A stretch of 64,000 bases of DNA from Halomonas sp. M20 (lineage in GTDB: Bacteria > Pseudomonadota > Gammaproteobacteria > Pseudomonadales > Halomonadaceae): positions 1-64,000 of the forward strand of contig NZ_JACNMQ010000004.1 of NCBI RefSeq assembly GCF_020622265.1, given 5' to 3'. A program made the position numbers and the translations under genes. Of this stretch, positions 55,377 through 61,840 are shown piece by piece. How positions within the stretch are numbered: position 1 is the first letter of the stretch; every line of letters starts with the position of its first letter. The notes under the pieces were generated by a model. That model saw only the letters and a program-made list of their open reading frames with translations. It was not told where the DNA came from and searched no databases.

Positions 55377-56099
55377 TCAGCACCACAGATCGCTGATTGG
55401 GGTCTGCGGTGAATAGTGCCGAGCGATCTGAGCCTGGAACAGCTCCGCCGTCGCCAGCGCGTCCAGCAAGGCGTGATGCCCGGTATAGAACGGTAGATGA
55501 TAACGCTCCCTGCTTTCCGCCAGGCGCAACGAAGCAGAGGGGCGCCCGCTGAGCCGCTTCAACCAGGCCCAGCGCCGTTTGCGATGCACTCGCGCCTCCA
55601 ATTGCATGGTATCAATCATGGGAAACAGCAGATTCTCGCCCATTCGGGTACGGGTAGCGCGATTGAGGAAGGGACGCTCGATGTTGCGGTAATGCACCAC
55701 CACCAGACTGCCTGCGAGAACCTCCAGCAGTTCCGCGAGTATGTCGCCAAGATCCGGCGCCGTCTCGATCTCGGAGTGGGTGATGTGATGAAACGTGATG
55801 GATTGCTCGCTTAATGGCTGGCGCGGCTGCACTACCCAATAGTGGCTTTGCGCAAGGGGAATGCGCTTGAGCGTAAAGGGCTGGGCGCCAACGCTGACGA
55901 TACCGTGGCGTACTGCATCGAGCCCGGTGGTTTCCAGATCCAGGGCCACCAATGGCACGTCACCGATGGGCGTTTGCGGATCTGGAATACCCGCAGAGTA
56001 AAAACGCCGAAGACCAGAATCCCGCGCCACCTGGGCGCAGCTTGCCATGTAGTCCGCCCAGTTTGTCTGATCGTGCTTGCTTGAAAGAAGAGACGTCAT
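55377..56099 (-). CDS. DnaQ-like 3'-5' exonuclease
   Basis: 240 aa from the ATG at 56099, in a 4-base ATGA overlap with the upstream gene; the frame runs open to 56534 but only as antisense-like sequence. The RNase T/DnaQ DEDDh fold is shown by VALDLETTGLD (about 56-66, first Asp and Glu) and HHALLDALATAEL near the C-terminus (catalytic His and last Asp). It resembles the stand-alone epsilon-like exonucleases found next to DUF294/CBS proteins. Substrate unknown. Confidence 0.82.
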   Translation of the reverse strand: MTSLLSSKHDQTNWADYMASCAQVARDSGLRRFYSAGIPDPQTPIGDVPLVALDLETTGLDAVRHGIVSVGAQPFTLKRIPLAQSHYWVVQPRQPLSEQSITFHHITHSEIETAPDLGDILAELLEVLAGSLVVVHYRNIERPFLNRATRTRMGENLLFPMIDTMQLEARVHRKRRWAWLKRLSGRPSASLRLAESRERYHLPFYTGHHALLDALATAELFQAQIARHYSPQTPISDLWC

Positions 56100-58012
56100 A
56101 TTTCGGTTCGGCGGCCCTTCGTTGGTATCGGATAGCGAAATTTGATGAACTTTTGCGCATGACTCAGTGTTTCGAAGGCCGCCTTCAGATAGTGCCGGTC
56201 GCGGCTGGATATGCTCTCCGGCTCGATGTTGTTGTCCGGTTGCTGCCCTGCCTCTATATCCATTACCTGATGGCGCAGGCGCACCATGGAAATGAACTCT
56301 AGCGCATGACCGAGCCTTGCGCTGCCCCCTTCGGGAAGTATTCGAGCCGCATTGATGGCCTCGAGACGATTGAAGGTATTCTGGGCGTTTGAGCCGCAGG
56401 CCAGGGCATGCACCCGCACCAGATCCACAAAGGGCGCGGTGCCCCGGCGCTTGAGATTGATGGAGTTGTCGTGCTTGCCATCCTTTTCCATCACGAAGGT
56501 GCGAAAGAACCCCAGCGGCGGCGTACGGTTGCATGCATTACGGGCCATTGCGGCAAGAAACAAGGGGCTCTGCGAGGCCTTGCTCGCAACCAGGTCCTGC
56601 AACTGCTCGACGAACACTTCCTCGCCATACACGCCGTCCAGATCGAAGAAGATCGAGCTGTCGAGCAGACGCTCGGGGTTGGGCTCGTCGATCCAGGTCG
56701 AGAAGTACGTTTTCCACACGGACAACGGTTGCCGCCAACGGGAATTGGTGGCCATGATGTCGCCCTTGCAATAGCTGTATCCGCAGGCTGCCAAGCCATC
56801 GCTGACGAAGGTGGCAAGCTTCAGGAAGTAGTCGTCGTGGTCTGCAGAGACGAAATCGTCGCTCAAGACCAGGGCGTTGTCCTGATCCGTGACGATGGCC
56901 TGTTCATCCCGCGCCATGGAGCCAAGTGCCATGAAACAAAAGGGAATCGGCGCCGGGCCAATCTCTTCCTGGGCAAGCTCGATTAACCGCCGGGTAAAGC
57001 TGCGACCGATGCTGGACAACGCACGGCCGATCATCTGGGAATCCGCCCCTTCCGACACCAGCTGCACGAAGGCTGAATGCACTTCGACACTCAGACGTTT
57101 GAGCCCCTCGACATTGGACTGACTGAAGATATTGCTGACCAGATAAAGGCTGCTATGGGTCTCATAGCGTACGATATCCGATAGATGCAATATGCCGATC
57201 GGGCGACGACGATGTAGCACCGGCAGGTGGTGTACATTGTTACGCAGCATGCAGAGCATGGCTTCGTACAAGGACTCCTCGGATTGTACGGTAATCGGGT
57301 CCTTGGACATCACCTCGGTTACCGGTGACTCCGGCGTCACGCCGGCGGCCAGCACTCGGGTACAGAAGTCGCGGTCCGTCAAGATTCCTGCCAGCTTCCA
57401 GGCTTGGCCATCCGCCAGGGTAAACTGCCGTGAATGATCTTCATCCGGAAAGCTGAGTACGAGTACCGCGGTTGACGACTCATCGCGCATGCGCATGGCG
57501 GTCTCCTGCAGCGTCGCCGATGGCTCGACCATGGTGGGATAGCGTCGGATCAACTTGCGCACTCGGGACGTCATCATGTCGCTATTATGACGCTGCTGCT
57601 CCACGGTAGTCTTCAGTGCCGACCCACCCTCCTCGACGTAGTCGGCGAAATCGTCGTTTTCCTCGCAAAGACGCTCGAACACGGTTTCGGGAATGAAGTA
57701 GATCAGCGTATCTTCGATCGCCCGCACCGGAAATTGGACGCCTCGGCGGCGTAACAAATCGGAGTAACCAAAGATGTCACCTTCACTCAAGCGGTTGTAG
57801 AGACTCCCGCTGCGGCGATACATCTCCACGGCGCCGCTACGGATATAACACAGCTCGTGGGTTTCCTGATCCCGGGCCAGTATTTCGGTATCCGCCCGGT
57901 AATAGCTGACCTGAACCTCGCTTGCTGCCGCATCGAGCAATTCATCGGATAGGCGATCAAAGGGTGCGAACCGCCCGAGATGGTCGCGGATTTCCAGCAA
58001 TTCGGTATTCAT
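56096..58012 (-). CDS. cNMP-binding/CBS/DUF294 nucleotidyltransferase-like protein
   Basis: 638 aa. Domains in order: cyclic-nucleotide-binding-like (about 15-125), paired CBS domains (about 155-280), a DUF294 nucleotidyltransferase-like domain with GSMARDEQAIVTDQDNALV (about 382-400, keeping the G-S and D-x-D motif), and the DUF294 C-terminal helical region (from about 490). Cytoplasmic, probably a signalling protein sensing adenylates or cNMP. It overlaps the exonuclease gene. In other gammaproteobacteria such pairs sit next to acetate/solute symporters; here the BCCT genes are adjacent. Confidence 0.87.
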   Translation of the reverse strand: MNTELLEIRDHLGRFAPFDRLSDELLDAAASEVQVSYYRADTEILARDQETHELCYIRSGAVEMYRRSGSLYNRLSEGDIFGYSDLLRRRGVQFPVRAIEDTLIYFIPETVFERLCEENDDFADYVEEGGSALKTTVEQQRHNSDMMTSRVRKLIRRYPTMVEPSATLQETAMRMRDESSTAVLVLSFPDEDHSRQFTLADGQAWKLAGILTDRDFCTRVLAAGVTPESPVTEVMSKDPITVQSEESLYEAMLCMLRNNVHHLPVLHRRRPIGILHLSDIVRYETHSSLYLVSNIFSQSNVEGLKRLSVEVHSAFVQLVSEGADSQMIGRALSSIGRSFTRRLIELAQEEIGPAPIPFCFMALGSMARDEQAIVTDQDNALVLSDDFVSADHDDYFLKLATFVSDGLAACGYSYCKGDIMATNSRWRQPLSVWKTYFSTWIDEPNPERLLDSSIFFDLDGVYGEEVFVEQLQDLVASKASQSPLFLAAMARNACNRTPPLGFFRTFVMEKDGKHDNSINLKRRGTAPFVDLVRVHALACGSNAQNTFNRLEAINAARILPEGGSARLGHALEFISMVRLRHQVMDIEAGQQPDNNIEPESISSRDRHYLKAAFETLSHAQKFIKFRYPIPTKGRRTEI

Positions 58013-58126: not shown

Positions 58127-58238
<112 letters not shown>

Positions 58239-58524: not shown

Positions 58525-59748
58525 ATGGAAAAGAATCCTGACAAGGGTTACGTTGCGATGCTTGGCTGGAGCCTGAGTGCCATCGAGGCGCTGGATCGCT
58601 TTGACCGGCGCTACGTCATCGTGGCACCGGACTGGGCGGAAGAGTATTGCAAGGAACATGACATTCCTTATCTTGCCTGGAATTTCGAACGTCTCAACGA
58701 CCGTTCGATGGAAATTGCTGAAACCCTCAATGACATGGGAGTCGATGTTGCCATTCCGCTTTTCGAGGAAACCGTGGAGTGGGCCGGTGCAATCAACTCG
58801 GTGCTGATGGATAACCCGCGGCTGTACGGGCAGGCTCTATTGCTGCGCGACAAGGCATTGATGAAGCGTCGTGCTCAGCTTGGCGGTATTCGCGTAGGCA
58901 TCTTCGAGGAAGCCCACGACAAGTCCGATGTCATTCGCTTTCTCAAGCGCGTCAACCAGACCCTACTCAAACTCGATGGCGACCCCAACGACCCCATTCA
59001 CCTGAAGGCCTTCGATAAAGCGGGCTGCCTCGGCCATCGGGTCATCCGTACCCCGGACGAGATCGATACGATTCCCGACGAGGAATTCCCGGTCTTGATG
59101 GAGAGCCACCTGGACGGCTGGGAATTCGCCGTCGAGGCGTGGGTACACGACGGCAAGATTCGCTTTCTGAATATTTCCGAGTACGTGACCCTGGGCTATT
59201 CCGTCTTCGTGCCTGCGACCCCGGAGCTTGAAAAGTACCGGGAAGCGATCACTCGCCAGATCGAGAAACTGATCAAGACCTTCGATATCGAATTTGGCTT
59301 CATCCATCCCGAGTACTTCGTCACCAGTGACGGAGAAATGTACTTTGGTGAAGTCGCCTACCGTCCGCCGGGTTTCAAGGTCTTCGAGCTGCTCGAACGC
59401 GCCTACGGCTTCAACGCCTATCAAGGGCTGGTGTTGTCCTTCGACCCCAAGACCACCGAGGAGGAAATCACGAACTTCTTTCCCAAGGAGGTGGTGGATG
59501 CCAAGGGCCATGCAGGCTGCTTCGGGGTCTATCCGCGCCGGAGGGTGGTCAGCAAGCTCGAGATTCCTGAGGAAACGGAACAGCACGAGTACTTCGAGTC
59601 TCATGAATTGACGGCTCCGCTGGAAGAGACCGTGACCAAGCGCACTGCATTTGGTACGCACTGGGGACTGATCTATTTCTTCGGCGACGATCCGCATACC
59701 ATGCGCGATCTGTTGAAGCATCAGGAAGAGCTCGATTTCTACGTATGA
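58525..59748 (+). CDS. ATP-grasp ligase-like protein
   Basis: 407 aa. ATP-grasp enzymes join a carboxylate, via an acyl phosphate, to an amine or similar nucleophile. The N-terminal region (1-95) resembles a pre-ATP-grasp domain. Nucleotide-binding features are LLRDKALMKRR (Lys110), HLKAFDKAGCLG (Lys161), LMESHLDGWEFAVEAWVHDG (Glu193, Glu204) and GEVAYRPPGFKVFELLERAYGF (Glu276, Arg280), the last being the metal-binding E-x-x-x-R pattern. A C-terminal domain of about 95 residues follows. No known substrate. Operon with the next gene, 28 bases downstream. AGGGAG ribosome site. Confidence 0.82.
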   Translation: MEKNPDKGYVAMLGWSLSAIEALDRFDRRYVIVAPDWAEEYCKEHDIPYLAWNFERLNDRSMEIAETLNDMGVDVAIPLFEETVEWAGAINSVLMDNPRLYGQALLLRDKALMKRRAQLGGIRVGIFEEAHDKSDVIRFLKRVNQTLLKLDGDPNDPIHLKAFDKAGCLGHRVIRTPDEIDTIPDEEFPVLMESHLDGWEFAVEAWVHDGKIRFLNISEYVTLGYSVFVPATPELEKYREAITRQIEKLIKTFDIEFGFIHPEYFVTSDGEMYFGEVAYRPPGFKVFELLERAYGFNAYQGLVLSFDPKTTEEEITNFFPKEVVDAKGHAGCFGVYPRRRVVSKLEIPEETEQHEYFESHELTAPLEETVTKRTAFGTHWGLIYFFGDDPHTMRDLLKHQEELDFYV

Positions 59749-59776
59749 GCAGACTGCAGCATGCCAAGGAGCTTGC

Positions 59777-61789
59777 TTGACTAATCAAGGAGAAAACGCC
59801 GGCGACCTGCAAAGGTCGCTTGCGAATCTGGATGAGGCAATCGACATCCTTGCCCGAACACCGGATTATGCCAAAGCCACCAAAACCAGTCGGGTGCTGA
59901 CGGCGTTGCGCCGTATCATGATGATGGAAGGCGGCTTTGATGCGATCGAGCAACGCGCCGCACCATTAGAGACGGCGGGCATCTTCAACGGCTCCGACTG
60001 GGCCCAACCACAAATATTGCAACCTGCATTGACCAAGTATTCGCTGCGCTCGGAATCCAGTGACGTAGTGCTGATGGAAACCCTGAGCGAAATACGCCTG
60101 CTGGCAGTTGCCAAGGGTGCCTACCCGCATTCCGCCATTTCCACTGAACAGGCTCATCATTATCTGACCCAGGTACTGGCGCTCAATCTGGAATTGCTGT
60201 TTACGGCCCCCAGCGAAGCAGAGCGAACGCAGCAAGGTAGCCTGGCGCTGTTGACCCGGGGCCTGCTCAGGCATCTAGCGGAGGGTATCGGCTACGAGCA
60301 TATCGTCGATCAGCTGGTGGACGAGATCTGGCGCGTGCTGCAGCAGCGCCCGATTCAGGTCGAATCCGTCAAGCAGATGATTTTGCAGATTGCCGCCTGT
60401 CGCATCAATCCGAACATCGACCTTGGCGTCAGCGGTCAAGGCGCGGATCGCCTGATCAGCAGCCTATTCGGTACCACCAACGGCTGTCGCGAGGATCCAG
60501 GCCTCGAAATTTATCAGCAGCGCCTGGAAAGCATGGACGCGGCGGCGCTTCAGTTCGAAGCTACCGGCTTCGCCCGAGCGATGCACGATACTGGCCTGGT
60601 CTCGCCCTATCACGCATTGCTGCTGCGCCATCTACTGACGCACAGCGATCATGTTCTGAGCGAGGCCCTAGGCCTTTCCAGCACCGGTCGTGACTGCCTG
60701 CTGTGCTATCACGCCCTGGTCCATGCCATGATCGATCTGGCAGTGCATCCCGAGACCAGCCAGGCCATCTACGGGCTGGCATTGATGCTCGAGCGCGGCA
60801 TCCTATATCAACCGCCGGTGGCGCCGGCCCTGTGGCGCCAGGTAGGGCTCGAGTTGTCACCCTATTCCCAGCAACGCCTGACCCTTGCCTTCGGTGTCAC
60901 GCCTTCTCCCGGTGCGCGGCTGATGGAGGGCGTGCTGTGCATGCTCGGCCAGCCGCTCGGGGTCGGGCAAGGTAACAATCCCACCTGTCAGTCGGCCCGA
61001 GCCCTTTCGATGTGGTCCTACAACGACCCGGACTACCTGCTGCAGATGATCGTCTGGGCCACGCGTGACGACGAGATCATCATGCACTTCGAAGGTCAGC
61101 CGGTCTCTTCCAGGGAAAACCTTGAGGGTGTCGCCAAGACGCTGCCCATGGATCTCGACCCGGTATCGCTGCTGGTGGTGCCGCATCTGGATCGCATCTA
61201 CACCGAAATGGGACGGCGCTGCATGGCCCGGGGCGAAGACCCGCACCGCTGGGTCAATCCGGAATTCCACGGTTGGTGGGCCGGACGCGGTTTCCGGATT
61301 GCCGTGGATGTCGCTACCGGCAAGCTGTTTCAGCTGGAAAATTTCCTGCGCCACTTCTATGCCTGCTACCACCCTTACTACAATGGCAATCAACCGCTGA
61401 TTCACCCCCAACCCGCGGGGGTCGCGGTCACCGATAGCGCTGCGCGCTTCATCGGATGGCATGCCATTTCACTGCTGCGGGTGAGCCTGGACCCGCAACA
61501 GGTCATGCGCATGTACTTCTTCAATCCCAACAACGATAGCGGTCAGGATTGGGGGGATGGTGTGGTGGTCAGTACCGCTGGGAACGGCGAGCGTTACGGC
61601 GAGGCCTCCCTACTCTTCGAAGACTTTCTTTCGCGTCTTTATATCTTTCATTACGACCCTCTGGAGCCAGGCGATACCAGCGCTGTCGACGAAGGATACA
61701 TTCAAGAAGTCGTCGCCAAAGTCCAGCGCACCTGGGCCAAGGATCGGATACCCACAGACCCCTTACAGGCTCTAAGCGGTTCGCTTTAA
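59777..61789 (+). CDS. unassigned protein with papain-like (Cys-His-Asn) motifs
   Basis: 670 aa from TTG at 59777 (TTG ACT AAT), 28 bases after the ATP-grasp gene; AGGA lies about 10 bases upstream. I do not recognise the family. Residues 1-370 look helical, with no signal peptide or membrane segment. Residues 385-600 hold candidate catalytic motifs: VGQGNNPTCQSARAL has Gln398 six residues before Cys404, as in papain (Gln19, Cys25), and WHAISLL (His562) leads to YFFNPNNDSG (Asn583), the usual His-then-Asn/Asp order of clan CA. A second His-Asp set (His498, Asp511) is nearby and could be an alternative. Inferred: cysteine peptidase, amidase or acyltransferase acting with the ATP-grasp partner. 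Confidence 0.75.
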   Translation: MTNQGENAGDLQRSLANLDEAIDILARTPDYAKATKTSRVLTALRRIMMMEGGFDAIEQRAAPLETAGIFNGSDWAQPQILQPALTKYSLRSESSDVVLMETLSEIRLLAVAKGAYPHSAISTEQAHHYLTQVLALNLELLFTAPSEAERTQQGSLALLTRGLLRHLAEGIGYEHIVDQLVDEIWRVLQQRPIQVESVKQMILQIAACRINPNIDLGVSGQGADRLISSLFGTTNGCREDPGLEIYQQRLESMDAAALQFEATGFARAMHDTGLVSPYHALLLRHLLTHSDHVLSEALGLSSTGRDCLLCYHALVHAMIDLAVHPETSQAIYGLALMLERGILYQPPVAPALWRQVGLELSPYSQQRLTLAFGVTPSPGARLMEGVLCMLGQPLGVGQGNNPTCQSARALSMWSYNDPDYLLQMIVWATRDDEIIMHFEGQPVSSRENLEGVAKTLPMDLDPVSLLVVPHLDRIYTEMGRRCMARGEDPHRWVNPEFHGWWAGRGFRIAVDVATGKLFQLENFLRHFYACYHPYYNGNQPLIHPQPAGVAVTDSAARFIGWHAISLLRVSLDPQQVMRMYFFNPNNDSGQDWGDGVVVSTAGNGERYGEASLLFEDFLSRLYIFHYDPLEPGDTSAVDEGYIQEVVAKVQRTWAKDRIPTDPLQALSGSL

Positions 61790-61818: not shown

Positions 61819-61840
61819 CCCCACTGGAATGCCAGTGGGG
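61819..61840. terminator. terminator-like hairpin between the ATP-grasp operon and tctA
   Basis: 9-base arms CCCCACTGG / CCAGTGGGG around AATG, between the two converging operons. Followed by TCTCGTC on the plus strand; no long U-tract. Confidence 0.6.

Follow-up and report, generated by a model that had tools for sequence, protein, structure and literature searches.

A 64,000-nucleotide stretch of the genome of the salt-loving bacterium Halomonas sp. M20 (contig NZ_JACNMQ010000004.1, positions 1 to 64,000; hereafter, the window) contains a gene for a 407-residue ATP-grasp ligase of the ATP-grasp_4 type (58525..59748, plus strand), followed after 28 bases by a gene for an orphan protein of 670 residues (59777..61789, plus strand), which we call P670. 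The question raised by this locus is whether the two genes act together and, if so, in what chemistry. The initial annotation of the window, whose gene lengths and spacing proved to be exact, had suggested a system that makes and breaks amides. We find that the two genes form a real functional unit, that they depend on one another across genomes, and that the resulting module, extended by an HDAC-like gene in many relatives, is tightly conserved around a central protein that belongs to no recognized class and whose enzymatic nature we infer. The genes that travel together suggest an undescribed pathway of amide making and amide breaking, and we put the probability that the module performs amide chemistry with two enzymes, or with three in many relatives, at roughly one half.

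Conservation of the gene pair across genomes

The initial annotation had proposed surveying relatives for co-occurrence of the two genes. We searched samples of 101 genomes from the family and 369 from the class, a few of which are in both, and a sample of 398 genomes from the phylum. P670 was found in 60 of the 101 family genomes, and a close ATP-grasp in the same 60. For this count, three of the 63 family genomes returned by the ATP-grasp search (G018, G026 and G044) were dropped as having weak matches only, and one genome (G009), in which the ATP-grasp gene is broken in two frames, was scored as positive. The class sample harbors P670 in 13 of its 369 genomes and a strong ATP-grasp in the same 13; ATP-grasp matches were seen in 34 class genomes, 13 of them at 745 bits or more and the others at 72 bits or less, and since no more than three first-look candidates in each genome were scored for P670, its absence from a class genome is not absolute. 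P670 is thus tied to one ATP-grasp subfamily, neither being seen without the other in these two samples. In the phylum sample P670 was present in 11 of the 398 genomes, one of which (G116) lies outside the class, and there, too, the ATP-grasp gene adjoins it.

The two genes are also neighbors, and the separation in most relatives that would have spoken against a shared function was not seen. Among the best 80 P670 loci, a list ranked by similarity to the window and not representative of the whole family, 75 have the ATP-grasp gene directly upstream in tandem, and five are without a full local copy. Another 33 loci comprise 11 tandems in the same order, three reversed tandems (L129, L158, L159), four divergent pairs (L119, L120, L122, L125), two convergent pairs (L153, L155), 12 P670 genes without a full local ATP-grasp, and one locus (L136) that could not be typed because of a broken gene. 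As tandems in either order, divergent and convergent arrangements all occur, the linkage outlives rearrangement. Four genomes (G080, G096, G058 and G039) have a C-terminal ATP-grasp stub alone beside P670 and a full copy elsewhere (77-79% identity), and in some genomes a single full ATP-grasp is accompanied by two or three copies of P670, the window's own genome having one and two, respectively. ATP-grasp is the more conserved partner, with 84-99% identity versus 68-94% for P670 in those of loci L001-L080 that have both genes.

P670 accounts for 554 matching stretches in a species-level genome collection. Its relatives were not found in viral contigs (one scan, with a single protein) or in phages, and the plasmid relatives amount to one record, from Halomonas. 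The broken ATP-grasp gene at L136 (G009:C10:753415-754598) lies in two frames beside P670 and reflects either a frameshift or an assembly error.

The HDAC-fold third partner

The pair had been described as an isolated unit. This holds in the window, where it stands alone between ffs and the tct genes, but some relatives have a third neighbor. A gene for an HDAC-fold zinc amidohydrolase adjoins the pair in five loci (L160, L119, L159, L158 and L013, the last cut by the contig end), and the four full copies share 47-75% identity with one another. The protein matches PF00850 (311 bits), its best matches in the PDB are HDAC6 and HDAH, and the copy at L160 carries the motifs GHHA, DxDxHHGNG and GGY, which we take to be its zinc-site residues.

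The distribution of this gene follows that of the pair. In the family sample, a close HDAC form, defined by at least 469 bits with the next matches falling to 223, is found in 33 of the 60 pair-bearing genomes and in none of the 41 others; in the class sample, at 330 bits or more, it is found in 11 of the 13 pair-bearing genomes and in none of the 356 others. Twelve class genomes pass 1e-80, namely these 11, all scoring about 334 bits or higher, and the pair-less G692 with one partial match of 274 bits. The 11 HDAC-positive class genomes span eight family labels, and the two pair-bearing class genomes without a close form are the window's own and G640. In many relatives, the module includes this HDAC-like third part, which the earlier two-part reading had missed and which gives the system a testable chemistry.

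The ATP-grasp protein and P670

The 407-residue protein had been called a clear ATP-grasp enzyme, which it is by family profile and by residues, but its own Pfam score is weak: with 25.7 bits for PF13535 (ATP-grasp_4), it falls slightly short of the gathering cut-off of 27 bits. The same family is matched at E<=0.01 by all 22 members in our alignment of the ATP-grasp proteins (A4). In the PDB, a profile of this alignment matched 4dim at E 1.5e-4 and two L-amino-acid ligases, 4wd3 (E 4e-4) and 3vot (E 7e-4); all three are distant. Lys161 (59005..59007, plus strand), which is invariant in A4, aligns with a lysine of 4dim, and both presumably contact ATP. The catalytic-loop motif (59311..59364, plus strand), with Glu263 (in HPE), Glu276 and Arg280 (in GEVAYRPPG), aligns with 4wd3 and 3vot and is likewise invariant; we take the two glutamates to be the acidic metal positions and the arginine to be catalytic. 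By alignment, then, the general ATP-grasp residue set of ATP-binding lysine, acidic positions and arginine is present.

P670, by comparison with databases, is an orphan, as had been stated: the window protein matches nothing in Pfam or NCBIfam at E<=10 and gives no significant PDB match, whether as a single sequence or through profiles. The PDB profile matches to designed helical proteins and interferon gamma (E 0.25 or worse) were judged to be chance, as were those from a Pfam scan of 29 members, which hit seven families in one member each (best E 0.056; C1 propeptide, E 0.18). The Gln398-x5-Cys404, His562-Ala563 and Asn583-Pro-Asn motifs, pointed out in the initial annotation as an arrangement of clan CA cysteine peptidases, are present as claimed, and their conservation goes beyond chance. 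Across 114 aligned P670 sequences, the most divergent of them at 40% identity, 76 of the 670 positions are invariant, and they include, in 114 of 114 sequences, Gln398 (codon 60968..60970, the proposed oxyanion-hole residue), Cys404 (60986..60988, the proposed nucleophile), His562 (61460..61462, the proposed general base) and Asn583 (61523..61525, the proposed third residue), all on the plus strand. Cys404 is the sole cysteine among the invariant positions, and the order Gln, Cys, His, Asn, with the glutamine six positions before the cysteine as in clan CA, is kept throughout. However, the C-terminal half of P670 is densely conserved, so that invariance by itself is no proof of catalysis.

An AlphaFold2 model built from 63 sequences (the window protein and 62 relatives) is usable in the N-terminal part only, where helical stretches at about 11-170 and 241-340 are modeled with fair to high confidence; a model from the single sequence, with a mean predicted local distance difference test (pLDDT) of 38, was uninformative. 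P670 has an alpha-helical N-terminal part and, at about residues 380-640, a C-terminal part that we propose to be papain-like. In a region of low confidence, the model places Cys404 near the start of a helix (402-416), His562 just before one strand (564-571) and Asn583 just after another (576-582), which agrees with the papain-like order of a cysteine at a helix start and a histidine and an asparagine bracketing two strands. We also aligned the P670 profile by hhalign with calpain, papain-type and transglutaminase templates, together with unrelated control families and shuffled templates. With the bacterial calpain template L166 (Q-x5-C) and the papain-type template L187 (HA...N...WG), the best local alignment falls in catalytic register, which, being non-significant, we retain as a hint.

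A papain-like fold of P670 is not borne out by the quantitative comparisons. Confidence around the proposed active site is low, with a predicted template modeling score of 0.34 for the model and a mean pLDDT of 31-33 at residues 391-410, 47 at 561-570 and 44-60 over 561-590, so that the modeled distances between Cys404, His562 and Asn583 are untrustworthy. The hhalign probabilities with papain-like templates are below 2%, within the range of the unrelated controls; the scores were equaled by 56 of 200 shuffled templates for calpain and 21 of 200 for the papain type; and the other papain-type templates, including the highest-scoring (L189, L188), as well as the transglutaminases are out of catalytic register. 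A Foldseek search of the model against the PDB returned nothing at E<=0.001, its best rows being helical-repeat proteins. The clan CA reading thus fits in residue order, spacing and modeled secondary structure, but the fold itself, non-significant by Foldseek and by profile comparison, is unproven, and we regard it as plausible.

Candidate chemistry and known systems

Several P670 copies lie beside genes of amine metabolism. At L123:941-6870, an operon for a putrescine-type ABC transporter is followed by a P670 paralog which, in its longest reading, begins three bases beyond the final transporter gene. The same order of transporter operon and P670 recurs at L124:5280-11458, where about 190 bases separate the two. 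The second P670 of the window's own genome (G000:C10:328397-330364; L117:7398-9365), which is 56% identical, lies about 267 kilobases from the pair in the window and has no ATP-grasp of its own, faces, in convergent orientation, an operon with genes for two flavin adenine dinucleotide (FAD) oxidoreductases and an antiporter as well as for an acetylpolyamine amidohydrolase (6phr, E 1.5e-124). At L208, an HDAC of the cluster type is located two genes away from an operon which, by eye, resembles the one at L117 except for the last gene, and at L018 P670 is adjoined by genes for an aminotransferase and for a protein resembling succinate-semialdehyde dehydrogenase. Since genes for acetylpolyamines, putrescine transport and amine catabolism adjoin several P670 copies, a diamine, polyamine or lysine-like amine is the best lead to a substrate, and we offer it as a hypothesis. 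Separately, P670 has genes for a formamidase and an aliphatic amidase upstream of it at L153:1880-4617, and an amidase gene near it at L130. Many Halomonas-type loci also have an amino-acid ABC transporter close to the pair, which we put down to shared synteny.

In the window, the 28-base gap (59749..59776, plus strand) contains AAGGAG (59766-59771) before the start codon of P670, which is TTG. Upstream of the ATP-grasp gene is ffs (58133-58229, minus strand; Rfam RF00169), and further upstream a minus-strand gene (56096-58012) for a DUF294 nucleotidyltransferase with CBS and cyclic nucleotide (cNMP)-binding domains adjoins an exonuclease gene. Downstream of P670 are tctA, which is convergent, and then tctB; a hairpin of nine pairs between P670 and tctA (61819..61840) is terminator-like on the minus strand but weak as a signal, one being found against a mean of 2.7 in shuffles.

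In the amide chemistry that we favor, the ATP-grasp enzyme would, like its family, activate a carboxylate as an acyl phosphate and then join it to an amine. P670, judging from its motif order, invariance and modeled secondary structure, may use a papain-type site of Cys404, His562, Asn583 and Gln398 to cleave that amide or to transfer the acyl group through an acyl-enzyme. In many relatives, the HDAC-fold zinc amidohydrolase would, from the chemistry of its family, take the acyl group off the same or a related amine. The make/break system of the initial annotation is borne out in part, in that the pair is real and its ATP-grasp aligns weakly with L-amino-acid ligases, but not as regards the cysteine-enzyme fold of P670, which is unproven.

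A number of observations pull the other way. The genes of the pair are about 55 kilobases apart in G762. (The ATP-grasp gene of that genome, at L206:7031-9953, has a same-strand neighbor that encodes an aldehyde dehydrogenase.) Many of the listed P670 loci show no amine-gene neighbor; of the best NCBIfam matches of the L123 transporter (PotF, PotG and PotI, plus a permease), the three Pot matches are under the cut-offs, and the polyamine ATPase model TIGR01187 is passed. The window's own genome has no close HDAC form (best match 1e-49), the Fisher values for association of HDAC and pair (2e-10 in the family, 2e-19 in the class) overstate independence owing to genome kinship, and around 23 unlinked HDAC copies no family besides HDAC recurs in more than two loci. 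Moreover, the adjacent HDAC is nearer to HDAC6 and HDAH than to acetylpolyamine amidohydrolase, and in a survey of bacterial deacylases polyamine deacetylase activity was confined among its bacterial enzymes to the ApaH cluster (PMC11532494); the adjacent HDAC in itself is therefore no argument for polyamines.

The same HDAC6/HDAH likeness would suit a modification of proteins or peptides, in which the ATP-grasp enzyme attaches a group, for example on lysine, P670 takes it off again as a deconjugase, and acyl-lysine is the substrate of the HDAC-like enzyme. The size of P670 and its helical stretches, which could bind a protein partner, the surplus of P670 over full ATP-grasp copies in some genomes, including the window's own, and the tagging proposed for the Anbu operon (PMC6376114) agree with it as well. 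However, a clustering of neighboring open reading frames of at least 120 residues, which would miss a small modifier, showed no protein partner that recurs next to the pair, and some P670 paralogs adjoin small-amine genes; we consider this explanation unlikely. Alternatively, the module might make a small peptide-like solute or metabolite suited to conditions of salt stress or nitrogen stress, P670 serving in maturation or transfer, which we consider improbable: L-amino-acid ligases are among the closest solved ATP-grasp relatives, and the best 80 loci come mostly from genera that we take to be halophilic or marine, but that list was ranked by similarity to the window, the module there lacks a transporter and any additional biosynthetic gene of its own, and the known osmolyte dipeptide genes look different. 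Just as improbable in our estimate is a P670 that is no cysteine enzyme but a partner protein of the ATP-grasp, with Cys404, His562 and Asn583 structural or metal-binding; many of the 76 invariant positions do look non-catalytic and no fold or profile match is significant, but four residues in clan CA order and spacing, with the cysteine at a helix start and the histidine and asparagine bracketing strands in the low-confidence model, argue for an enzyme. A role in defence was set aside, as PADLOC gave no match for the ATP-grasp, P670 or HDAC-type protein.

No account of the ATP-grasp/P670 pair or of the triad with HDAC was found in the open literature, the 2009 amidoligase survey being outside that coverage. 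With the L-amino-acid ligases (4wd3, and 3vot, which is BL00235) the ATP-grasp shares the aligned loop H-x-E...E-(V/I)-x-x-R-x-x-G, but the sequences are very distant and the ATP-grasp here goes with P670. The third partner resembles the class II HDAC/HDAH deacylases and acetylpolyamine amidohydrolase in its PF00850 domain, and the P670 paralog in the window's own genome adjoins a gene of the latter; we know of no deacylase that has been tied to an ATP-grasp. The main text of the bacterial deacylase survey does not use the term 'ATP-grasp' (PMC11532494). In fungi, an ATP-grasp and a separate amide synthetase build amides of putrescine, cadaverine and agmatine, the second enzyme making the polyamine bond (PMC12568646). 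The Anbu operon comprises an ATP-grasp, alpha-E, a transglutaminase-like protein and Anbu, with roles that are unconfirmed (PMC6376114). Like our module, it clusters an ATP-grasp with a papain-superfamily-type candidate and a hydrolase, but P670 has no Pfam transglutaminase match, and by eye no alpha-E or Anbu genes were recognized in the neighbor lists, at which no profile search was aimed.

The make/break logic of an ATP-driven amide ligase with a cysteine amidase is shared with glutathionylspermidine synthetase/amidase, whose amine is a polyamine. That enzyme is bifunctional, joining a CHAP amidase to an ATP-grasp-type ligase. CHAP and GSP_synth domains were not found in our ATP-grasp protein or P670 (Pfam, E<=10), and the module differs in having separate genes and, in many relatives, the HDAC-like third one. 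The module would be a new addition to the make/break amide systems, and P670, should its fold be confirmed, would represent a new papain-like family. In a more ambitious version, which we think doubtful, the ATP-grasp, the new papain-like family and the HDAC-fold deacylase would constitute a previously undescribed, mainly gammaproteobacterial three-enzyme cycle for the reversible conjugation of an amine, be it a diamine, a polyamine or one resembling lysine. Centered on a new enzyme family, such a cycle would parallel, on an amide basis, the chemistry of glutathionylspermidine or gamma-glutamylputrescine.

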